IMG/VR virus record: IMGVR_UViG_3300025168_000893
Span: 1 to 20,264 of that record
Length of the DNA stretch: 20,264 nt
From: a virus
Reading direction: 5' to 3' (one strand)
The notes below the pieces were generated by a model. It was given only the letters and a program-made list of their open reading frames with translations, did no database searches and was not told the origin of the DNA. Positions 27-20,264 of this stretch are shown here, one piece after another (positions within the stretch are counted from its first letter, which is position 1; each line of letters opens with the position of its first letter). The position numbers were made by a program, and so were the translations under genes.

Positions 27-2777
27 CTATATGTCTTTCAGTGTTCTGCCTACGTCTGCCTCTGCCGTCATGGGTACTTCCCACGAGGGTATTCTGATGA
101 CCATGCACTCTTCCATGGTGCGTCGCATACGTTCAATCTCCGGCGGCAAAGGCTCGCCCTTCACCGGAGACCATAAAGGATCGAAGCCGCCTGGTAGCGG
201 TACCTCGACTGCGATGGAGTCATGGCACTGATGAATCATCCCGGTGCCTGGACCCGCAAACTCGAAGGGGAACGCGTCTCTTACGGCGCACTCAGCTAAA
301 CGCATGACACTTCCCTCGGCTGCCAGGATGGGGAAGTTCACCACCTCGTTGAGCTTGCCATCACTGAGAGGACCGGAGCGCCTACCCATAACGGGCTCCT
401 CCATCCAGCCTTGGTGTTTGTAGTCCGCCATCATGCGGTCCCATGCTTGCGCCCACTCGGGTTCGGACTTCAACCAGGCGTCGTGCATTACCCGCACCTC
501 GCGGATGGACATGCCCACGTACGGAAGCTCCCCGTTATCTACCTCAGTAGACGTGATAATCTGCCACACCGTTGCGGGGTTAGCCGCATAGATACTGGAG
601 TAACGAAGTGTCTTCACTACATCACGCATAGCTTTCGCCGTACCACCAGACGGTTTCGTGTAGAGGCTGAACCCGTCCGGCCCCCACCCATCGGCGTTAG
701 CGAATCGATCCCCAAAGGCCGACGCTGCGAGCGTGTTGTGTGGGTCTTTGCCCTCGCGGAAGCACTCCAACAGCAGTGGTATCTTCCAGTAGCTTGCGGT
801 GATTCTTAGGTGGGCTTGGTCCAGGTCCGCGCCGATGAGTATGCGTCCGGGCGGTGCTGCAAAGATAGACTTCAATCGCCCTTGGCCCTTACGACTCCCG
901 AGGTTTTGCAGGTTTGGTCCGCTACTCGATAGTCTACCCACACTGGTGACATGAGCGTTCCAACTGGACCGCACCCGGCCGTCGTCCCACGCAACGCCTT
1001 TCTTCGGGTCCATGCGTTTCGTTCGCATGGGAATGAGTGTGGTGCCCAGCACCTTGTTCTTCTCTCGGCGATAGAGACGTAGCTCATAGATGAACCGTGT
1101 CTGCTCAGGGTTGAGTTGACCGCCGGCCAAGTGACCTCGAAGCACAGCATCACCGGTACTCGGTAGCCCGGCCTCTGTGTAGAAGTCTTTTGTCTCCATC
1201 TGAGCGGGCATACTTAACTGCCACTTATCGTAGAGCAGGTCGCGTATTTGGGCCGCGCTACCTGGGTTATCTATTGTAGGTGCCAAGGCCCGCAGGTTCT
1301 TATATCGCTTGTCTACGCTAATCTTGTACTCGACCTCAAGGCGACCGCGCAGTCCCTGGTCCACCCACACACCATTCTTGTGCATCTCCACACACATCTC
1401 TTGGGTCTTGTGGTCTACCTCGTTGAGATTCCATGCCTGTGTGCCGGGCCAGTTACCAGGCTTAATGTCTGCACGGATACCACGAAACGCACCCTGCGCC
1501 GCTGCGGCATCTATAAGAGGGGCAACGATACGCGCGTTGACTACAGTGTCTAAGATGTTGTAGCGCAGTAGCTCGTCGTCATCCTGAGAGCCGGTACTAA
1601 TCTTGGTACCCTTCTCGGTGGTCTCCCAACGCTCAACGTCAGTGAGTATCGAGCCGATGGTCTTCAACCCCTTCGGTAAGTCCGGCGCTCGGAAGCGTGC
1701 GGGAAACAGCGTGTCGACCAGTGGCTTAGGGGTGACACCCAGGTGATGCTCCACCACCATGCGGTCGTAGCTCCCCGCGTTGTGGCCCACCCAGACACGC
1801 CCGTCGGTGAAGACACGCCGCATAATGTCGAGTAGTGCCCGCTCTTTCTCAGGTGGGTTCAGTCTTGTATGGCCATCTGTAGAGAGTATCGGGAACGCAA
1901 CAGCCCGCGACACCTGGTGCGCCTTGCCTGTGCGAACCACCTTACCGTTAGCATCGAGGTCAGGTATGGCGATAGCGATGGTGCGCAGCCCACAAGTCAT
2001 CGCCTCAATGCCATCCGTCTCAACGTCGTAGACCCAGAAGGGTGACGGCTGCGCCAACCACTCTTCCAGCTCGTGTGGCTCAGGCTTCCACAGCACGTCA
2101 GGATCTTCCCACCGCAATGTATCGGCGAACCACCGGAACGCTTTACCCAGGTCCGCGTGTAGCACATGCCGCCAACTGGGCGACCGCTGTATGAATCCGG
2201 GTGAAAGCATCGGCATAGCTTTACGAGTGCCTTCTTCACGGACGACGGACCAGTCATCGTCGAGGCTAAGTGGACCGCCGCGCGTAGCTTGGATGCTGCT
2301 GTTCAGCCGAGTCAGCGCAAAGGTCGCGCGCTTACCCATCGTTATGATGTAGGGATAGTTAGCTGCGACACTAAGCAGTCGCGGGCGGCAGCACTCAGAC
2401 GGGTGAGCGATTGCCTCGTCACCATCTTTGGCGCGCTTCTTGTTGAGCCTACCCAAGTCTTTGTCGAAGCGCCTCCAGGCACCTGCCTCTTGACCGGACG
2501 GCTTACAGCACGTCACATGGTCGAGGTCTACATCAGGTCGCCGCTTACCCAAAGCACTGAGCGCGCTGTTCCACTCACTGCCTGCCCGACCTACCAAGGG
2601 TCGGCCGTAGGTGGTCGACTCCGCAGATGGGCTTTCACCTACAGCAAGAACCCGCGCCCCGGTGTGTCTCTCCGGGGGCACGGGCTGCCACAAGTCCTTA
2701 CGCAAAACCCCCGATGAACCTGGGCCGAGCGGACATTCGCCGCATCGGGCACCGTGGTTTCGGGGGTCGTACTTCAC
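27..2777 (-). CDS. Family A DNA polymerase with N-terminal family 4 uracil-DNA glycosylase-like domain (SPO1 polymerase type)
   Basis: This is the phage replicative polymerase, 916 residues. Residues 1-215 resemble family 4 uracil-DNA glycosylase: GESPSAE (47-53), GRPLVGRAG (58-66) and cysteines C12, C15, C90/C91 and C129/C130, placed as for a 4Fe-4S cluster. This fusion is known from phage SPO1 polymerase. Residues 245-420 are a 3'-5' proofreading exonuclease with D251, E253, D338, Y406 and D410 all present. Residues 450-916 are the polymerase: GRLSSSGPNLQN near 614-625, motif A DLDQAHLR (D651), motif B with R718, K722, Y726 and Y730, motif C HDS (852-854). Oddities: the usual His of the glycosylase HPxxxxR motif is Ser (LSPGF, 191-195); the motif A Glu steric-gate position is His656; motif C is HDS rather than HDE. 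The start is GTG with GAGGA four bases upstream. It is the last gene of the leftward early operon. Polymerase identity is firm; glycosylase activity is doubtful. Confidence 0.95.
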   Translation of the reverse strand: MKYDPRNHGARCGECPLGPGSSGVLRKDLWQPVPPERHTGARVLAVGESPSAESTTYGRPLVGRAGSEWNSALSALGKRRPDVDLDHVTCCKPSGQEAGAWRRFDKDLGRLNKKRAKDGDEAIAHPSECCRPRLLSVAANYPYIITMGKRATFALTRLNSSIQATRGGPLSLDDDWSVVREEGTRKAMPMLSPGFIQRSPSWRHVLHADLGKAFRWFADTLRWEDPDVLWKPEPHELEEWLAQPSPFWVYDVETDGIEAMTCGLRTIAIAIPDLDANGKVVRTGKAHQVSRAVAFPILSTDGHTRLNPPEKERALLDIMRRVFTDGRVWVGHNAGSYDRMVVEHHLGVTPKPLVDTLFPARFRAPDLPKGLKTIGSILTDVERWETTEKGTKISTGSQDDDELLRYNILDTVVNARIVAPLIDAAAAQGAFRGIRADIKPGNWPGTQAWNLNEVDHKTQEMCVEMHKNGVWVDQGLRGRLEVEYKISVDKRYKNLRALAPTIDNPGSAAQIRDLLYDKWQLSMPAQMETKDFYTEAGLPSTGDAVLRGHLAGGQLNPEQTRFIYELRLYRREKNKVLGTTLIPMRTKRMDPKKGVAWDDGRVRSSWNAHVTSVGRLSSSGPNLQNLGSRKGQGRLKSIFAAPPGRILIGADLDQAHLRITASYWKIPLLLECFREGKDPHNTLAASAFGDRFANADGWGPDGFSLYTKPSGGTAKAMRDVVKTLRYSSIYAANPATVWQIITSTEVDNGELPYVGMSIREVRVMHDAWLKSEPEWAQAWDRMMADYKHQGWMEEPVMGRRSGPLSDGKLNEVVNFPILAAEGSVMRLAECAVRDAFPFEFAGPGTGMIHQCHDSIAVEVPLPGGFDPLWSPVKGEPLPPEIERMRRTMEECMVIRIPSWEVPMTAEADVGRTLKDI

Positions 2778-9387: not shown

Positions 9388-9653
9388 TCTTTGGGCGACC
9401 GTTTACGGGCATTACCCAAGGCCGCAAGCTGGGCTGCGGTGTTGGCCTCGTTTAGAGCCGAGGTCACCCGGTCTATTTCTTCTTCGAAAGTCTGTTGGAT
9501 ATTATCGCGAGCAGCATCAGCCACAAGATTCTTAGGCGGCGCATCAGGCTTTTTGGTTTTCTTTTTTCCACAACCACTCTTCCCTACGAAGACCGCAAGG
9601 ACGATTGCGCCAAGAGCCGCGAGGATCTGGATGATGGTGTCCATTTCGATCAT
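9384..9653 (-). CDS. Small membrane protein with N-terminal TM and periplasmic coiled coil (i-spanin-like candidate)
   Basis: An 89-residue protein. A membrane segment at about 5-24 (DTIIQILAALGAIVLAVFVG) is followed by a lysine-rich patch (GKSGCGKKKTKK) and an Ala/Gln/Glu-rich helix at 43-82. An N-terminal anchor with a helical soluble tail is the Rz-type inner-membrane spanin layout, but it is shorter than usual and the Lys patch would more naturally face the cytoplasm, so orientation is uncertain. The first ATG overlaps the stop of the preceding gene as ATGA; an ATG three codons later is an alternative start. Confidence 0.55.
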   Translation of the reverse strand: MIEMDTIIQILAALGAIVLAVFVGKSGCGKKKTKKPDAPPKNLVADAARDNIQQTFEEEIDRVTSALNEANTAAQLAALGNARKRSPKE

Positions 9654-10021
9654 GACGCTACCAAGCGAACTACGACGGAGCTGGTTGGGGCTGTTCCATT
9701 ACCCGAGGCTGGATTCGACGTGCACCAGGTAGTCACACCCGCAGCATACAACGCGCCCTCTTGGATGGCGTAAGAGAGTCGCTGCCCGGCAGGCGCATAG
9801 AACATCCAAGTATGGTCAGAGGCCACCGAACCGATGCTCGCCGCGTCCGCGATGCGTAGATACACCGAATCTGTCGTATTCGCCGTATTATCAATGTCGA
9901 CCAGGTAGATTCGACCAGAGGTATTACCTGTAACGTTGTTCTTGATTCCCGCGTTCGCGACTAAGTCAACGACCAGGGTACCCGCAAGTGCTGTAGCTGT
10001 AGTGGATCGTGTGATTGCCAT
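9650..10021 (-). CDS. Small beta-rich virion-type protein, paralogue A
   Basis: A 123-residue protein rich in Ala, Thr, Val and Ser with no membrane segment, apparently all beta. It shares with the protein at 10603-10995 the blocks NVTG..(S/A)G..Y.V.IDN and W.FYA.A......Y.I..G......W. The two are clear paralogues, and weaker versions of the blocks appear in the proteins at 10025 and 11005. No function is recognised; a capsid decoration or fibre-associated role is possible. It lies three bases after the preceding gene with a weak ribosome site (TGAGCC), which suggests coupled translation. Confidence 0.75.
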   Translation of the reverse strand: MAITRSTTATALAGTLVVDLVANAGIKNNVTGNTSGRIYLVDIDNTANTTDSVYLRIADAASIGSVASDHTWMFYAPAGQRLSYAIQEGALYAAGVTTWCTSNPASGNGTAPTSSVVVRLVAS

Positions 10022-10024
10022 GGC

Positions 10025-10399
10025 TCAGCTACACGTCAAGCGAACAGTCGCTAAGCCGGTCAAGCTCGTTGTATCTGTCTGATTAGCTGATCTGGTCGCC
10101 CAGATACTCAACTGGGTAAAAGCAAACCCGTAAGGTATCTGGAACCACTCACGCGTGTATGCCTTACCTTTGATGATCAACTGCGGTACGGAACTACCCG
10201 GCGTGGGGTCGGCACCGTCATACAACTTCACCCAGTAGTCTGCCGACGCGTCTGTGCCGTCCAGGTACACGTTAAACAACCGACCTGGACCACCAGTGAC
10301 GTTCGACTGGACCTCTGTTGCCGTCTGCATGTTTGAGACCTCTACGATCTTAAAGTCTACAGCACCATGAAACCCGGTAGCTTTGAGCGTTGCTGCCAT
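10025..10399 (-). CDS. Small beta-rich virion-type protein, paralogue B
   Basis: A 124-residue beta-rich protein. It carries SNVTGGPGRLFNVYLDG and PQLIIKGKAYT, then IPYGFAFTQLSIWAT. The last block is nearly the same as IPSGVAFTKLSLWQT in the protein at 11005-11373, which makes those two the closest pair; the NVTG block links it to the other two. No known domain recognised. The start is ATG, three bases after the holin-like gene. Likely a virion protein by neighbourhood, not by homology. Confidence 0.75.
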   Translation of the reverse strand: MAATLKATGFHGAVDFKIVEVSNMQTATEVQSNVTGGPGRLFNVYLDGTDASADYWVKLYDGADPTPGSSVPQLIIKGKAYTREWFQIPYGFAFTQLSIWATRSANQTDTTSLTGLATVRLTCS

Positions 10400-10402
10400 A
10401 AG

Positions 10403-10594
10403 TTACTTCTTGCTCAGCGCAGCCATGGCTTTCTCGGCACTATCACCCGCAATGTAAGCAAGCCCAAGATACAACCACTGGGTTGAGTCGAGCATTCCCA
10501 AAGCGAGAAGGGCTGTACCTAATGCGAGGACTGCGAGCCTACGCCACGAGATTCGATGCTGAGAATCGAAGAATGTTTTAAGTAAGGCTTTCAT
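10403..10594 (-). CDS. Small holin-like membrane protein
   Basis: A 63-residue protein with a basic N terminus (MKALLKTFFDSQHRISWRR), a membrane segment at about 19-35 (LAVLALGTALLALGMLD) and a second, weaker hydrophobic stretch at about 40-49 (WLYLGLAYIAG), ending in a short charged tail (SKK). The size and topology fit small phage holins, but no family was recognised. The ribosome site is AGGGGA. It sits between two pairs of structural-type paralogues rather than in the lysis cassette, so a membrane role in assembly is also possible. Confidence 0.6.
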   Translation of the reverse strand: MKALLKTFFDSQHRISWRRLAVLALGTALLALGMLDSTQWLYLGLAYIAGDSAEKAMAALSKK

Positions 10595-10602
10595 GGGTTC
10601 CC

Positions 10603-10995
10603 CTATGTAGTGAGAATCTTAGTTGTGACCGGGTTACCGGGGTCCGTTTGCGCAACAGTAGTCGCCGCCGAGCCGTTAGCCGCCGTTGATGTACCCCAAA
10701 AGGACAAGGCAGTGGAAAACGCCACACCGGTTTCGATTACATACGATGTCTTAGTAGATGCCGCCGCGTAAAAAACCCAATCAGCGGACGTCGTTGACGG
10801 CGTAGCGTTAGCAACGTCTCCCGCTTTTACATACGTCGCCGCAGCGTTATTCTTGTTGTCAATCTGAACGTAGTACATGATACCCGCGGCACCTGTAACG
10901 TTATCTTCCGCCGCGTTGCTGTTCGTGTCTGTGGCCGCGTCAATGACGAGCTTAGTGGCTAATGGGTTGGATACATCTGCAACTGTAACAGCCAT
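10603..10995 (-). CDS. Small beta-rich virion-type protein, paralogue C
   Basis: A 130-residue Ala/Thr-rich, probably all-beta protein. The blocks DNVTGAAGIMYYVQIDN and DWVFYAAASTKTSYVIETG, followed by W at the end of the next strand, align with the protein at 9650-10021, making it the nearest paralogue. It has a strong AGGAGG ribosome site, the best among the four paralogues, which suggests high expression as for a virion component. No function is recognised. Confidence 0.75.
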   Translation of the reverse strand: MAVTVADVSNPLATKLVIDAATDTNSNAAEDNVTGAAGIMYYVQIDNKNNAAATYVKAGDVANATPSTTSADWVFYAAASTKTSYVIETGVAFSTALSFWGTSTAANGSAATTVAQTDPGNPVTTKILTT

Positions 10996-11004
10996 GATGG
11001 CCTC

Positions 11005-11373
11005 CTATGTTGTGACCAGTGTAACATTAAACGCAGCGGCAATTGACGCGTTGTTGACGTCGGTGCTCAGGGTCGTCTGCCATAAACTTAACTTGGTAAA
11101 CGCAACACCACTCGGTATTGTGACGCGAACAGTCGTGCTCGCGGGCACTTTAATCATAATATCAGGCACCGTGGTGCTGACAACTACCGTTGCTTCCGTG
11201 AGTGTAATCTTGAGATACCCAGCGTTTGCGCCGTTGACGACCGTGATGCTATGCAAAAACCCCGACGATGCAGTCACGTCGTCCATTGACGCATGAGTCA
11301 GTGCCGTATCCGAGACAATCTTATAGGTCAAAGTCTCAGTATCGAATCGAGCTGTTTTAAGATTTGTACTCAT
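11005..11373 (-). CDS. Small beta-rich virion-type protein, paralogue D
   Basis: A 122-residue Thr/Val-rich protein, first of the four paralogues to be transcribed. It shares PDIMIKVPAS and IPSGVAFTKLSLWQT with the protein at 10025-10399. The DDVTASSG block matches NVTG..G of the others only weakly. The start is ATG with AGGAT upstream. No known domain; role as minor capsid, decoration or fibre-associated protein is a guess from context. Confidence 0.75.
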   Translation of the reverse strand: MSTNLKTARFDTETLTYKIVSDTALTHASMDDVTASSGFLHSITVVNGANAGYLKITLTEATVVVSTTVPDIMIKVPASTTVRVTIPSGVAFTKLSLWQTTLSTDVNNASIAAAFNVTLVTT

Positions 11374-15571: not shown

Positions 15572-16021
15572 TCAGCCAAATACGAACCAGTTGATGCCAT
15601 TGGTATATAACTGATAGCTCGAATAGCCCGTGGTTACAATCAAGCGATCCGACCCTTCGAGCGTTTCCCGTATCGGTGTCGTGACTGTGATGTTGTTGGC
15701 TGCGGCCCTGCCACCCTCGTCTTTGAGGAAAAAAGTAAACCCCGCACCTACTGAGGATGACTCGGGAAGCTCAACAGTAATAGCGCCGTGTGACGTGTCA
15801 ACACCCACGAAATAGTCAGTAGGCTTGACCTTGTAGGGGCTGTTGGTAATAGATACCGACTCATGGTTGAAGCGCATACCTCCGCGTAAGTGAAGTAGGC
15901 CATCAGCCATTAGTAGGGGGCCAGCAGCCACGACCCGAGCGGAGCCTTTCCGCCACGTAAGCAGCCGGTTCTCCGAGCCTCGACCAAACCCTCGACGTAA
16001 GTAGTCAGAGAACCGCGGCAT
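15572..16021 (-). CDS. Small tail or fibre-associated protein with beta domain
   Basis: A 149-residue protein. The first 25 residues are basic (SDYLRRGFGRGSENR, WRKGS), and residues 48-149 form a beta domain with VTDY-like start (PTDYFVGVDT), ITVELPESS, FFLKDEGGRAAANNITVTT and a closing YSSYQLYTNGINWFVF. This arrangement of strand, LP turn, KDE.G.A..N.I and final W is common in short phage tail-fibre and decoration domains. The basic N terminus might bind a partner. It overlaps the large virion protein gene by one base (TAATG). Confidence 0.72.
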   Translation of the reverse strand: MPRFSDYLRRGFGRGSENRLLTWRKGSARVVAAGPLLMADGLLHLRGGMRFNHESVSITNSPYKVKPTDYFVGVDTSHGAITVELPESSSVGAGFTFFLKDEGGRAAANNITVTTPIRETLEGSDRLIVTTGYSSYQLYTNGINWFVFG

Positions 16022-19000
16022 TACTTATCACCCGGACGTTTCTGCCGCCCTTTCCGTGCAGCGTCGTAAACTTTTTCTGACCCCTTCTCATTGCGGGCAC
16101 GCCTACTCTCACCCGCCACCGTGCGGCTCGGGTAGACATCCTCGGTGTCAAGCCCGGTGACGCGACGTGCCCAAAGAATCGACTCTCCCTTCGCCGCGGC
16201 CTGCTCCAGTGGAGTCACGCGAGACTTCATAAGTATCGAGTTAAGCTCGCCGATGGGAGTATTGACAAAGAGCAGACGAGGTATCCCTGGCATCATATAA
16301 TAGCGCGCCTCTTTAATCGTGCCCGCGAACTCCGCCACGGGCCGCCCCTGCTCAAGCGCATCTTTACGCTCTGCCTCCTTCGTAAACGGGTCTTCCGACG
16401 GCGTCGTGGCGAACGTGTCAATCCCCGATGCCTCTGCAATAGCCACTAACGACGGGTGCAGCTTTTGCGGGTATGACGCTTTTTCCAAGCCGTAAGACGC
16501 AAGAAGCTCACTGGGAACCGGCGCTCTCTGAGGGCTGAACACCTCACCTAAAACACCCATCGACTGAACCAAATCGTCGGTACTGTCGCCCTCAGTTACC
16601 AACGACAACGGCGCTTTGACCAAGCCCTCGGCGGCCAGAATCATCGTGGCTGCCGTGTACCCCATGTGGTGAAACGCTGCGGTGTAAAACGGCTCAGGTA
16701 GCATGACAAAGGTATATGGCGTGTCCGGTGTGTTGTTCCGAATACCGTTGATCCACTTTCTCATGTTCTCTCTGTAGGTGTGCGGTACAGCAAGACCCGG
16801 ACGGTCGCGGCGAAACGTTCTACGTGAAGACATTGCAGGTTTGGGCACGTAGTACCGCGACAACTCCAGAGTACCCGTAGCCATCAGGAGACGTTTAATC
16901 TTGTCACCGGTAAACAGGGCACTCGACTCCAAGGCACCCGCTCTCATCTTACCCGACACCCAAGTCTCAAAGTCGCGACGAACATCATCGGGGATCGCAT
17001 CGGCCGAGCCATAGTGTTCTTCTAACGCTTCTTTGAGGCCGTAATAGGTGTCGCTCAACTCAATCGACATATTCTCTGTATCGATCCCGTACTCGTCGAC
17101 CATATCGTAGTACAGCATGTCACTGAGTAAGTCGAGCCCGTGCTCGTAGGATCTCCGCATAACGCCCAGACGATACGCGCCCTTCGGGCTAAACACCGTG
17201 TCCATTATCTGGCGGTTCGCGTTCTTCTGGAAAGCCCAAAACGGTAGCACCAGGTTGATCAGCCAGTGGCGATCCCACTTCGACATGGAACCCGCATAGT
17301 CATACAGCGCGTCAATCGTGATTCGCGCAGCAGTACGGGCATCAATGCCCATCTCCATGAGTGTAACCATCGCGCCCAATCGCTCGCGCTCAGACCAGGC
17401 TTCCGCTATATCGGCCGCCACACGCGGGAAATCGTTTAAGGAGAGAAACCGCTTCAACCGAAGCGCCATATCAGGGTCGTTTTCTTTCGCCTGCTTCAGC
17501 AATAGGTCGAGTGACTTCTGAATCTTTGTGCCCAACTGGGCCGTGTCGAAGCTGGAAAAGATCCCTTCCTGTAGAGCAACGTCCCGTATAACTTTCGCCG
17601 AAGTGGGGTTTCCCCCAAGAGAGTATACGATGCGACGCCCCTCTAAAATGTCGTTGACCTCTAACCGCCACTTAGACCCCATCAAGATCGCTCCAGCCCA
17701 ATGCGCGCCCTTGTCACCTGCTTTCTGTAGCTGCTTCCTGATTGCCTCACCCGCTTTGGGGAACCCGAGCTTTTTCGCCGCAACGACAACTGCCTGACCA
17801 AGAGGGTTTGAGATCGCGTTCTGATCCATCATCCTAATAGTCGACACAAACGCAGGACGAAAGCCCGTCACTAAAGCCATTTGATTGTAGTGGTCAAACG
17901 TGTTCATCGTGAAGTAGCGTGACTTCATTACAAAGTGGCCGCGAACCATCCGTGTCTTTGAGTAGCGATACGACCACGCCAGCCCCATAGCAAGTGGGTC
18001 CGTCGTAACTGCGGTACCCCCGCCGATAGCCTCTAAAAAGTCGCCCTTCAACAAGTCACTTACAGAGGGGTCAGTCGCACGTATCAACGCCTGAGACAAC
18101 CGCCTACGTGCCGCTTTCGGGACATACAAATCCAACCCGTAAAGGTCCATACCCTTCACGAAGTTCGGGCTATAGCCATGTACTTGGTACAACTGCAACA
18201 CGCGAAGCATATCGACTTCGGACTCTACAACCTCACCAGAAACCCAACGCTTAAAAGCTGATGCTGTTTGTGCGTCAGTCACAATACCCATCTTCGCCCA
18301 AGTAGACATCGCCTTCGCCGCTTTCCCGTGACCAGCGATAAGAACCACTACTCGGTTCGCTACCTTCGGATCGCCTTTGAATAGGGACGGACTGACTAAG
18401 TCTGAGTAAAGCTGCGTAAATATATGCGCAGAATCCATGCGCTGAGCCGCGGGTAAGAACTGCAGATCAAACTGCTTTGTTGCGCGCCCCAGACCGGCGG
18501 GGGGCCGACGACTTACACCCGATGCGTACATCAACGACTCAATGAGGCTACCAGGCTGACCTGCCTTTGATGGGGCACCAAAGATATTCGGTAAAAGCTG
18601 ACGCCCAGGAGCCACCCCTGCTGCCTTTAGAACCTCCGATATAAACGGGCTGGCGGCAGAATCCGACTTGATCTTGGCCAAGGCAGAGGTGACCAGCTCG
18701 GCTTTTGCCCGCATCTGCGTGTACTCCAACGTGCCTTTATGAACATGAATCGACTCAGCAAAATCTATCAATGCGTTCAACTCGGCCGAGGTTAGCGGCC
18801 CCTGCGCAGGGTCGAAAAAGCGTTTCATCTGCATCAAAACCGAACCCATCATGTCGTGACCCGAACTAATCGCGGGGCGACCACTATCGGCGAAGTTGAC
18901 CAGATCACCTGTGATATACGCTACCGTTGAATCAAAGTCACCCGTAGTGATTAGTTTGATCACGTCGCCGACTGTCTGCTCAAGCTCTTTTGGCATCGCG

Positions 19001-20264
19001 ATAATCGAGCGGCGTATCGGTTCAGGTAAGTTACGCATGTCTTCCACCGCGTCACCGCCCAAGTAGATACTACGCACCCACTTCTTGACTCCAGCAAACT
19101 CCCCGCTTGACACCCAGTTGTCGATGATCTGGGTCGGAGTCATCTCTTTAATGGCCTCTCGCCGCGCGCTTAGAGCCATGCGTGGACCAGGTGCTTTCGC
19201 TAAAAGCGACGCGCCTATTACCTCTTCAGTCAACCTAACTAAATCAGCCGCGGCAAACTCGGCCTTGCCCTCGGGGAACCGCCCCGCCATGTAGACCGGT
19301 CCAGGTAGCGTAATCTTGCCTAACCCATCCTTCTTATCGACCCCCCGCGCAGCAGCGTCTGCCGCAGCAGACTCGTCAAACTGCTTCACGAGATCCACGT
19401 GGCTTATGTCATGACCCAACCTACGGGACTCTCGTGCCAGGTCTTTGAACAAGTTGTAGCGAGTCCCCTTGTTACGCAGTGAATCCCCCGTGATCTCGTC
19501 ACGCACAGTCTTCATTATGTTCCGAAGAAACGGCTGCTTCGCTGGCTCATTACCCAGCAGCTCATCAAACACCTTGCGAATATCGGGGGTGACCGTCACG
19601 TCGAGGCCGCTTAGTGATCCGTAGATACCGATCAGCCACTGCTTCATCTGCTCAAACACCTGCTTCAGCGACGGTTTCGCCGCCACACCGGTGCGTATGT
19701 ATTCCTCGAACGCGCGCGCAAACTTCTCTTCTGCCTCTGTGACCATCTCTGCGGTACCGTCAAATCGCCCGCCCTTCGCTGAAACGCTCACACCCTCCGT
19801 ATCATTGAGCCACTTGACGACGGTGTCCATCTGAACCTCGCTCAAGTCCCGACGCATGACGTGGCCTATCTCGTGAATAAAGGTGGCAAAGTTTGGCTTG
19901 TTGAGTCCATAGATGACGGACCGACCGTTCTCCAAAAACTCCATCGCCCCCCGAAGCTCATCGTCAATTTCTTGCGCCAGCACCTGCGCTTTATACATCC
20001 CTTTATGGGTGGTCTCTAAGTCTTTTGCGCGGTCCCAGAGCCAGTGGTGCAAGATATGAGGCGCAATATCATCGTCGACACCCTCGGTAATACCCGACTT
20101 CTGTAGCCCTTTGAGTCGTTGCGTAATTCGCCGCTTAATCGTTTCCGATACTACCTTACTGCTAAACCTATTTTTTACGTCCCGCGCAAGCTGAGCTGAC
20201 TTAGTCTTTAGCGACCCAACGTCACCGCGCCCTGTAAGCCAGAGGTTAATCTCTACCGCGTCAA
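16021..20264 (-). CDS. Large internal-virion-type polyvalent protein with HExxH metallopeptidase motif (5' part outside window)
   Basis: The reading frame stays open to the right edge, giving at least 1,413 residues; the true start is outside. A TTG at 20052 lies in mid-frame and is not a credible start, since a further 70 sense codons precede it. Near the visible N terminus, ATFIHEIGHVMRRDL contains a zinc-metallopeptidase motif (HEIGH at 19861-19875), and EEKFARAFEEYIRTG some 45-57 residues later can supply the third ligand. The middle and C-terminal parts are long, mainly helical and unrecognised, but LINLVLPFWAFQKNANRQIM (about 17200-17262) resembles a hydrophobic block with conserved PF-aromatic seen in giant phage polyproteins (LPD-type domains). 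The tail end is basic (RRARNEKGS, RKGRQKRPGDK). Such proteins are packaged in the capsid and ejected with the DNA. Role and class are inferred from size, motif and position. Confidence 0.8.
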   Translation of the reverse strand, partial: DAVEINLWLTGRGDVGSLKTKSAQLARDVKNRFSSKVVSETIKRRITQRLKGLQKSGITEGVDDDIAPHILHHWLWDRAKDLETTHKGMYKAQVLAQEIDDELRGAMEFLENGRSVIYGLNKPNFATFIHEIGHVMRRDLSEVQMDTVVKWLNDTEGVSVSAKGGRFDGTAEMVTEAEEKFARAFEEYIRTGVAAKPSLKQVFEQMKQWLIGIYGSLSGLDVTVTPDIRKVFDELLGNEPAKQPFLRNIMKTVRDEITGDSLRNKGTRYNLFKDLARESRRLGHDISHVDLVKQFDESAAADAAARGVDKKDGLGKITLPGPVYMAGRFPEGKAEFAAADLVRLTEEVIGASLLAKAPGPRMALSARREAIKEMTPTQIIDNWVSSGEFAGVKKWVRSIYLGGDAVEDMRNLPEPIRRSIIAMPKELEQTVGDVIKLITTGDFDSTVAYITGDLVNFADSGRPAISSGHDMMGSVLMQMKRFFDPAQGPLTSAELNALIDFAESIHVHKGTLEYTQMRAKAELVTSALAKIKSDSAASPFISEVLKAAGVAPGRQLLPNIFGAPSKAGQPGSLIESLMYASGVSRRPPAGLGRATKQFDLQFLPAAQRMDSAHIFTQLYSDLVSPSLFKGDPKVANRVVVLIAGHGKAAKAMSTWAKMGIVTDAQTASAFKRWVSGEVVESEVDMLRVLQLYQVHGYSPNFVKGMDLYGLDLYVPKAARRRLSQALIRATDPSVSDLLKGDFLEAIGGGTAVTTDPLAMGLAWSYRYSKTRMVRGHFVMKSRYFTMNTFDHYNQMALVTGFRPAFVSTIRMMDQNAISNPLGQAVVVAAKKLGFPKAGEAIRKQLQKAGDKGAHWAGAILMGSKWRLEVNDILEGRRIVYSLGGNPTSAKVIRDVALQEGIFSSFDTAQLGTKIQKSLDLLLKQAKENDPDMALRLKRFLSLNDFPRVAADIAEAWSERERLGAMVTLMEMGIDARTAARITIDALYDYAGSMSKWDRHWLINLVLPFWAFQKNANRQIMDTVFSPKGAYRLGVMRRSYEHGLDLLSDMLYYDMVDEYGIDTENMSIELSDTYYGLKEALEEHYGSADAIPDDVRRDFETWVSGKMRAGALESSALFTGDKIKRLLMATGTLELSRYYVPKPAMSSRRTFRRDRPGLAVPHTYRENMRKWINGIRNNTPDTPYTFVMLPEPFYTAAFHHMGYTAATMILAAEGLVKAPLSLVTEGDSTDDLVQSMGVLGEVFSPQRAPVPSELLASYGLEKASYPQKLHPSLVAIAEASGIDTFATTPSEDPFTKEAERKDALEQGRPVAEFAGTIKEARYYMMPGIPRLLFVNTPIGELNSILMKSRVTPLEQAAAKGESILWARRVTGLDTEDVYPSRTVAGESRRARNEKGSEKVYDAARKGRQKRPGDK

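Follow-up and report, generated by a model that had tools for sequence, protein, structure and literature searches.

A viral clade of family A DNA polymerases with histidine in place of the sugar-gate glutamate and a co-occurring glutamate at Klenow position 852

The polymerase encoded in the viral DNA analysed here belongs to a clade of family A enzymes that carry histidine where Klenow has the gate glutamate E710, and that have at the same time exchanged Q849 for an aliphatic residue and gained a glutamate at position 852. We tentatively read these changes as a sugar gate that has been rebuilt and not simply lost.

The analysed DNA is the virus record IMGVR_UViG_3300025168_000893 of 20,264 bases, which we refer to, over its full length, as the window. 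Its polymerase protein has the following layout:

27-2777, (-) strand: DNA polymerase gene (open reading frame with translation, GTG start, 916 amino acids)
2148-2777, (-) strand: UDG-like domain, about residues 1-210 of the polymerase protein
about residues 225-430 of the same protein, (-) strand: 3'-5' exonuclease domain
about residues 440-916 of the same protein, (-) strand: family A polymerase domain

By profile, fold and catalytic residues, the 916-amino-acid protein is a family A polymerase. In the profile search it matches PF00476 with 94.4 bits against a cut-off of 34.3, the PHROGs match to phrog_17 (DNA polymerase) spans residues 41-912, and the NCBIfam models of Pol I and family 4 UDG match it only in part and below cut-off. 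The AlphaFold2 model of the protein, made with 52 sequences as input (mean pLDDT 91.1, pTM 0.87), aligns with Klenow (1kfd; Z 30.5, 528 residues, rmsd 3.5) and with Bst (4dsj; Z 31.8, 552 residues, rmsd 3.0). D651, D853, K722 and Y730 are invariant among 52 aligned relatives, in agreement with the initial annotation, in which the two catalytic aspartates were described as retained. The Pfam exonuclease model scores 15 bits, under its cut-off of 23.6; the residue set of a DEDDy proofreading exonuclease is nevertheless complete, with three Asp, one Glu and the Exo III Tyr (D251, E253, D338, Y406 and D410), all present in the window and invariant in the 52 relatives. The proofreading residues of the His-gated polymerase are thus intact.

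The active-site residues lie at the following positions:

933-941, (-) strand: Val613 to Arg615 (Klenow R668); residue 613 is Thr, Ser or Gly in other rows
825-827, (-) strand: GAC, motif A codon, catalytic Asp651 (Klenow D705)
819-821, (-) strand: GAC, motif A codon, extra Asp653 (Klenow S707)
810-812, (-) strand: CAC, motif A codon, His656 at the sugar-gate position (Klenow E710)
612-614, (-) strand: AAG, codon of K722 (Klenow K758)
600-602, (-) strand: TAC, motif B codon, Tyr726 (Klenow F762)
588-590, (-) strand: TAT, codon of Tyr730 (Klenow Y766), the retained partner of the gate residue
324-326, (-) strand: Leu818 (Klenow Q849), Leu or Ile only in the His clade
315-317, (-) strand: Glu821 (Klenow A852), a new glutamate in model helix 809-835
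222-224, (-) strand: CAT, motif C codon, His852 (Klenow H881)
219-221, (-) strand: GAC, motif C codon, catalytic Asp853 (Klenow D882)
216-218, (-) strand: TCC, motif C codon, Ser854 (Klenow E883)

Motif A reads DLDQAHLR, with His656 five residues past D651, while motif B is KTLRYSSIY and motif C is HDS. The phmmer alignment to Klenow around D705 and E710 runs through motif A without a gap, and in a wider family A alignment 263 of the 274 rows pass a check of the motif columns. Codons and Klenow alignment both bear out the residues named in the initial annotation (DLDQAHLR with His656, Tyr726 and HDS), and the codons from D651 to S854, including those of D653, H656, K722, Y726, Y730, H852 and D853, all lie within the region 210-830 to which it had assigned them. 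The window thus has His656 in place of the canonical Glu710-type gate. The codons of L818 and E821, which went unmentioned there, fall within the same region.

The three motif residues had been described together as unusual, and this description is apt for His656, which has a clade of its own, but not for HDS and Tyr726, which are common. After removal of 11 rows that failed the motif-column check (L225 and L346, with a Glu gate and a non-acid residue at 852; L184 and L352, with Glu and position 852 missing; and seven without the motifs) and of one duplicate among the remaining 263, the survey comprised 262 family A rows, nearly all from viral collections, gathered with few queries and enriched in relatives of these queries, not a random sample. 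In these rows position 883 is E in 97, S in 93, A in 62, G in 5, Q in 4 and Y in 1, and position 762 is Y in 132, F in 109, H in 18 and L in 3. The polymerase of Thermus phage Tt72 naturally has Ser at 883 and is reported to be active, with the S616A variant retaining 76% of the activity (PMC9324360), and Tyr762 is treated in connection with dideoxynucleotides in PMC6302109. Because both residues are common in the survey and a Ser883 enzyme is active, no special explanation is needed for them, and by their frequency HDS and Tyr726 are ordinary for phage family A polymerases. The idea that D653, where Klenow has S707, compensates for HDS was rejected as a rule, since Ser707 is found with Ala883 in 42 and with Ser883 in 33 of 263 rows; within the polymerase family of the window, D653 is Asp in 74/74 His rows and 32/32 Glu rows. 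As a separate observation, a UDG-fused polymerase of Microcystis phage Mel-JY34 (L052, 5076-7508) forms with loci L187-L210 a clade that combines an Asp gate with His762 and HDS, and His762 is present in 18/18 Asp-gated rows.

For His656, the initial annotation had suggested placing the sequence in a tree to see whether the residue defines a clade. The family set, drawn from three IMG/VR scans, two named phages, two genome loci and the window, holds 117 distinct rows: at the gate, 74 read His, 35 read Glu and 1 reads Asp, while 7 are fragments with no residue there. The count of 74 was taken over rows having His and is by itself no proof of invariance, so that a tree was needed for the claim of a single group. 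Among the 118 rows (117 distinct), 100 span motifs A to C, and the first tree was built from 63 rows at <90% identity. When the motif columns were blanked, a maximum-likelihood tree of 59 rows placed the His sequences on one side of a branch with support 100/95; with the motifs left in and four outgroups added, the support for the His clade is 99/96. In the sister groups the residue is Glu in each of the 32 sequences that include the site, and the tree contains no reversal from His within the clade. Sequencing error is ruled out by the presence of His656 in 74 distinct sequences. The codon is CAC in 60 of these and CAT in 14 (window included), and the fact that His is kept across CAC/CAT switches points to selection for this residue. 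Alternatives that join the core clade or L122-L124 to the Glu group were rejected narrowly (p-AU 0.0445 and 0.0416), and the wide tree leaves the fork between one and two His origins unsettled; a single origin of His, in the core clade plus L122-L124, is therefore favoured, not certain. Outside viruses, one scan of genome contigs for relatives in cellular genomes gave two distant matches, and the 88 plasmid records with a match all stayed below 60% identity and below 80% coverage of the query. The polymerase of record L002 (IMGVR_UViG_3300001450_001243) is 100% identical to that of the window in tblastn, yet the whole frame is not letter-identical.

The histidine does not stand alone. Four of 784 columns (613, 630, 656 and 818) fully separate 37 His-gated representatives from 65 other family A rows, column 630 being occupied in only about half of these 65. 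At 818, the equivalent of Q849, the representatives have Leu (34) or Ile (3), and the full His set has Leu in 65 and Ile in 3 (n=68); Gln is found in 225/225 other rows, 222/222 Glu/Asp-gated ones included. At the position of Klenow 852, Glu is present in 37/37 His representatives and in 66/66 His-gated sequences covering the site, and Glu or Asp in 0/221 Glu/Asp-gated rows with a residue there. The gate partner Y766 is kept as Tyr in 37/37 representatives. By the AlphaFold2 secondary structure, E821 lies within helix 809-835, three residues past L818. A glutamate placed elsewhere in the gate had been named at the outset as an observation that would speak against altered sugar selectivity, and E821 comes close to this, its contact with the gate being a candidate suggested by sequence. 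As for Q849, the Klenow Q849A change leaves DNA substrate recognition unaffected according to a published source, and the equivalent Taq Q754 is listed among the residues that tolerate substitution least (PMC6345897).

Apart from His, Gln is the sole non-acid residue at the gate in the surveyed rows; it occurs in the distinct but close sequences of Cyanophage PP, Pf-WMP3 (contig L222) and Lbo-JY12. Again, Glu is present at 852 in 3/3 of these rows, while their cousins TR020, A-4L and Pf-WMP4 have a Glu gate and Ala, Ala and Cys, respectively, at 852. When these columns were blanked in a tree of 64 representatives, the loss of the gate acid and the gain of Glu852 each mapped to two events, the two kinds of change coinciding, and well-supported branches require two changes. 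When sequences are clustered at 50% identity, Glu852 occurs in 3/3 non-acid clusters (two of them from the His clade) and in 0/31 acid-gated ones. Position 852 is the sole one of 209 comparable columns in which the His and Gln groups share a residue absent from all acid-gated rows, the next-best being column 826, whose Arg is present in 1/222 acid-gated rows. In two lineages, then, a different helix may provide the carboxylate that the gate has lost. A point against this is the Asp-gated Mel-JY34 clade, in which the gate residue changed without Glu852, although the acid was retained. The same pattern could also be explained by neutral, lineage-specific drift, in which His656, L818 and E821 would be unrelated changes on one long branch and the cyanophage Glu852 a coincidence. 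Indeed, the branch to the core His clade is long in the first tree, 17 of 808 columns within the family separate this clade from its sister groups, and lineage history may for these reasons account for part of the association; furthermore, the sign test on coincident changes gives p 0.5, since with only two independent events it cannot reach significance. Weighing against drift are the location of all three sites in or near the active site by homology and the singular behaviour of column 852, and we consider drift rather unlikely.

The substitutions, the clade and the co-occurrence are read directly from the sequences; starting from these, we infer which contacts are made and that ribonucleotides are still excluded. 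E710 is the steric gate against ribonucleotides (PMC13228545, citing Astatke et al. 1998), and E710 and Y766, joined by a hydrogen bond in the closed complex, are described as giving the nucleotide pocket its shape (PMC4882331). In the proposed gate, the imidazole of His656 would lie next to C2' of the incoming nucleotide, where E710 has its side chain, and would pair with the retained Tyr730, and Glu821, on the helix after L818, would restore the negative charge of E710 via His656 and/or Arg615. In reverse transcriptases and in polymerase families B and Y, the gate is generally aromatic and occupies the equivalent position following the motif A Asp, so a ring at the gate is chemically not strange and is odd only for family A. 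Because the bulky side chain would still block the 2'-OH, the His-gated polymerase probably keeps its exclusion of ribonucleotides, at least for the most part. Loss of Q849 would remove a template-side minor-groove contact at the primer end, and extension of mismatches would for this reason be the property likeliest to differ. We regard this rebuilt gate, with Glu821 standing in for the charge of E710, as plausible while holding it tentatively. A more general version, namely a second working family A gate with a carboxylate at 852 and His or Gln in motif A, which arose at least twice in phages and would mean that E710 is not universal, is possible, and we put it forward with greater reserve.

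One feature of the clade could argue the other way. Ala655, beside the gate, is present in 71/74 His-gated sequences and could widen the pocket, which is a point against a rebuilt gate. By analogy with known variants, the pocket formed by His656 and Ala655 might then admit ribonucleotides and help copying when dNTPs are short, as in DinB2. Taq I614K, changed at the residue equivalent to Ala655, takes up ribonucleotides (PMC6345897), the gate mutation E615G serves to make Taq accept them (PMC4215692), and the Leu-gated DinB2 of mycobacteria, a natural variant from another family, is described as using them (PMC4176160). The lack of any PF02867 (ribonucleotide reductase) match in 20 related records would also fit such a relaxed gate, but it is common to 14 His-gated and 6 Glu-gated records, many of them fragments, and thus does not track the gate. 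Moreover, His is bulky and strictly kept whereas known relaxed gates are small or aliphatic residues, the proofreading residues are intact, and the co-gained Glu would be left without explanation. A relaxed gate is in our judgement unlikely.

The amino-terminal domain invites a further reading. PF03167 scores 22.2 bits on the window polymerase, under its cut-off of 24.3, and TIGR00758 (family 4 UDG) reaches 31.3 bits against 125.3; PF03167 is over cut-off in 5/6 relatives scanned (L003, L052, L105, L119 and L122) and under it in L044. The domain contains C12, C15, C91 and C130, which we take to be the four Fe-S cluster cysteines of family 4 UDG, and among the 117 distinct rows, those with a residue at the site concerned have Cys in 110/111, 111/113, 111/112 and 112/113 cases, respectively. 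The position of the HP-motif His (residue 192) is Ser in the window, and across the 117 rows it is His in 74, Ser in 28 and Ala in 9; given this Ser, the domain of the window may bind uracil rather than cut it. The polymerase of phage SPO1 also carries a UDG-type domain; among the matches listed in our literature search, we found no report of a UDG-polymerase fusion. The fusion, and a low-scoring local hit to NF038380, the model of the aminoadenine polymerase DpoZ, could be taken to mean that the pocket was reshaped for a modified dNTP or a modified DNA template. This is a highly improbable reading: the NF038380 match has 33.2 bits against a cut-off of 500, which places the window polymerase outside DpoZ, local similarity of this kind is expected for any family A polymerase, and PF00709, thymidylate synthase and dUTPase gave no match over cut-off in the 20 related records.

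We also considered the genomic context of the His-gated polymerase. Upstream of the polymerase gene, the (-) strand of the window encodes a 203-amino-acid protein with no significant match, a Sak4-like protein, a PD-(D/E)XK-type nuclease (phrog_1218, exonuclease) and a SNF2/DEAD-type helicase. In the related record G003 (71.6 kb), helicase, exonuclease and Sak4-like genes stand in the same order just before the polymerase and are followed by a primase/helicase, and a scan of 20 of its 60 listed open reading frames revealed portal-, head-tail adaptor-, major head- and internal virion-like genes elsewhere. Given the shared gene order and these virion-like genes, we assign the window to a tailed phage. 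PF00476 is found in one open frame per record in the 20 related records, in G017 and G019 as two pieces of one frame, and because this is the sole family A gene seen in each of them, the His-gated enzyme presumably copies the phage genomes. None of PF02867, PF00709, PF00303 (thymidylate synthase) and PF00692 (dUTPase) gave a match over cut-off in the 20 records, many of which are fragments, with a sub-threshold PF00709 match of 13.9 bits in G018. With one family A gene per record and no match over cut-off to these four profiles, the enzyme is probably a replicase that uses host-supplied dNTPs. Two other features of the (-) strand of the window were noted, namely four adjacent, mutually related genes of 122-130 amino acids at 9650-11373 (phmmer best E 1.7e-15, weakest 0.009) and, at 16021-20262, an open frame of 1413 amino acids that runs off the window and matches phrog_9880 (function unknown) over residues 92-237.

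In the description given in PMC4882331, conservation of E710 and Y766 is universal across family A, and our literature search, which covered few subscription papers, brought up no family A enzyme with a naturally occurring His or Gln gate among the matches listed. A natural clade without the gate Glu and without Q849, with a Glu elsewhere, departs from this published universality. The clade offers natural starting points for dissecting sugar and mismatch discrimination among H656, L818 and E821, and its enzymes may find use in applications that call for the incorporation of unusual nucleotides.

Compared with Klenow, the window polymerase shares the fold, the catalytic aspartates, the equivalents of Lys758 and Tyr766 and the exonuclease residues, and differs in having His for E710, Leu for Q849, Glu for A852, Asp for S707 and Ser for E883. 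The Klenow-type enzyme has a 5' nuclease in front of the polymerase, in place of which the window protein has its UDG-like domain. The L105/L106 group of UDG-fused phage polymerases, 37-41% identical, resembles the window in domain order, DxDQ, Tyr762 and, in L105 and L106, HDS, but retains the Glu gate and Gln849 and has Gly or Ala at 852. Tt72 polymerase, as described in PMC9324360, is alike in its natural Ser for E883 and differs in keeping the gate Glu (E389) and in having Phe762. The Gln-gated cyanophage enzymes, distant on the tree, share with the His clade a non-acid gate and Glu at 852; since they keep Q849 and have Phe at 766, in addition to Phe762 and an intact HDE, they are no replica of it. 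Lastly, DinB2 of Mycobacterium smegmatis likewise represents a naturally occurring clade whose steric gate has changed, but it belongs to family Y, its gate is Leu, and its use of ribonucleotides has been demonstrated (PMC4176160).
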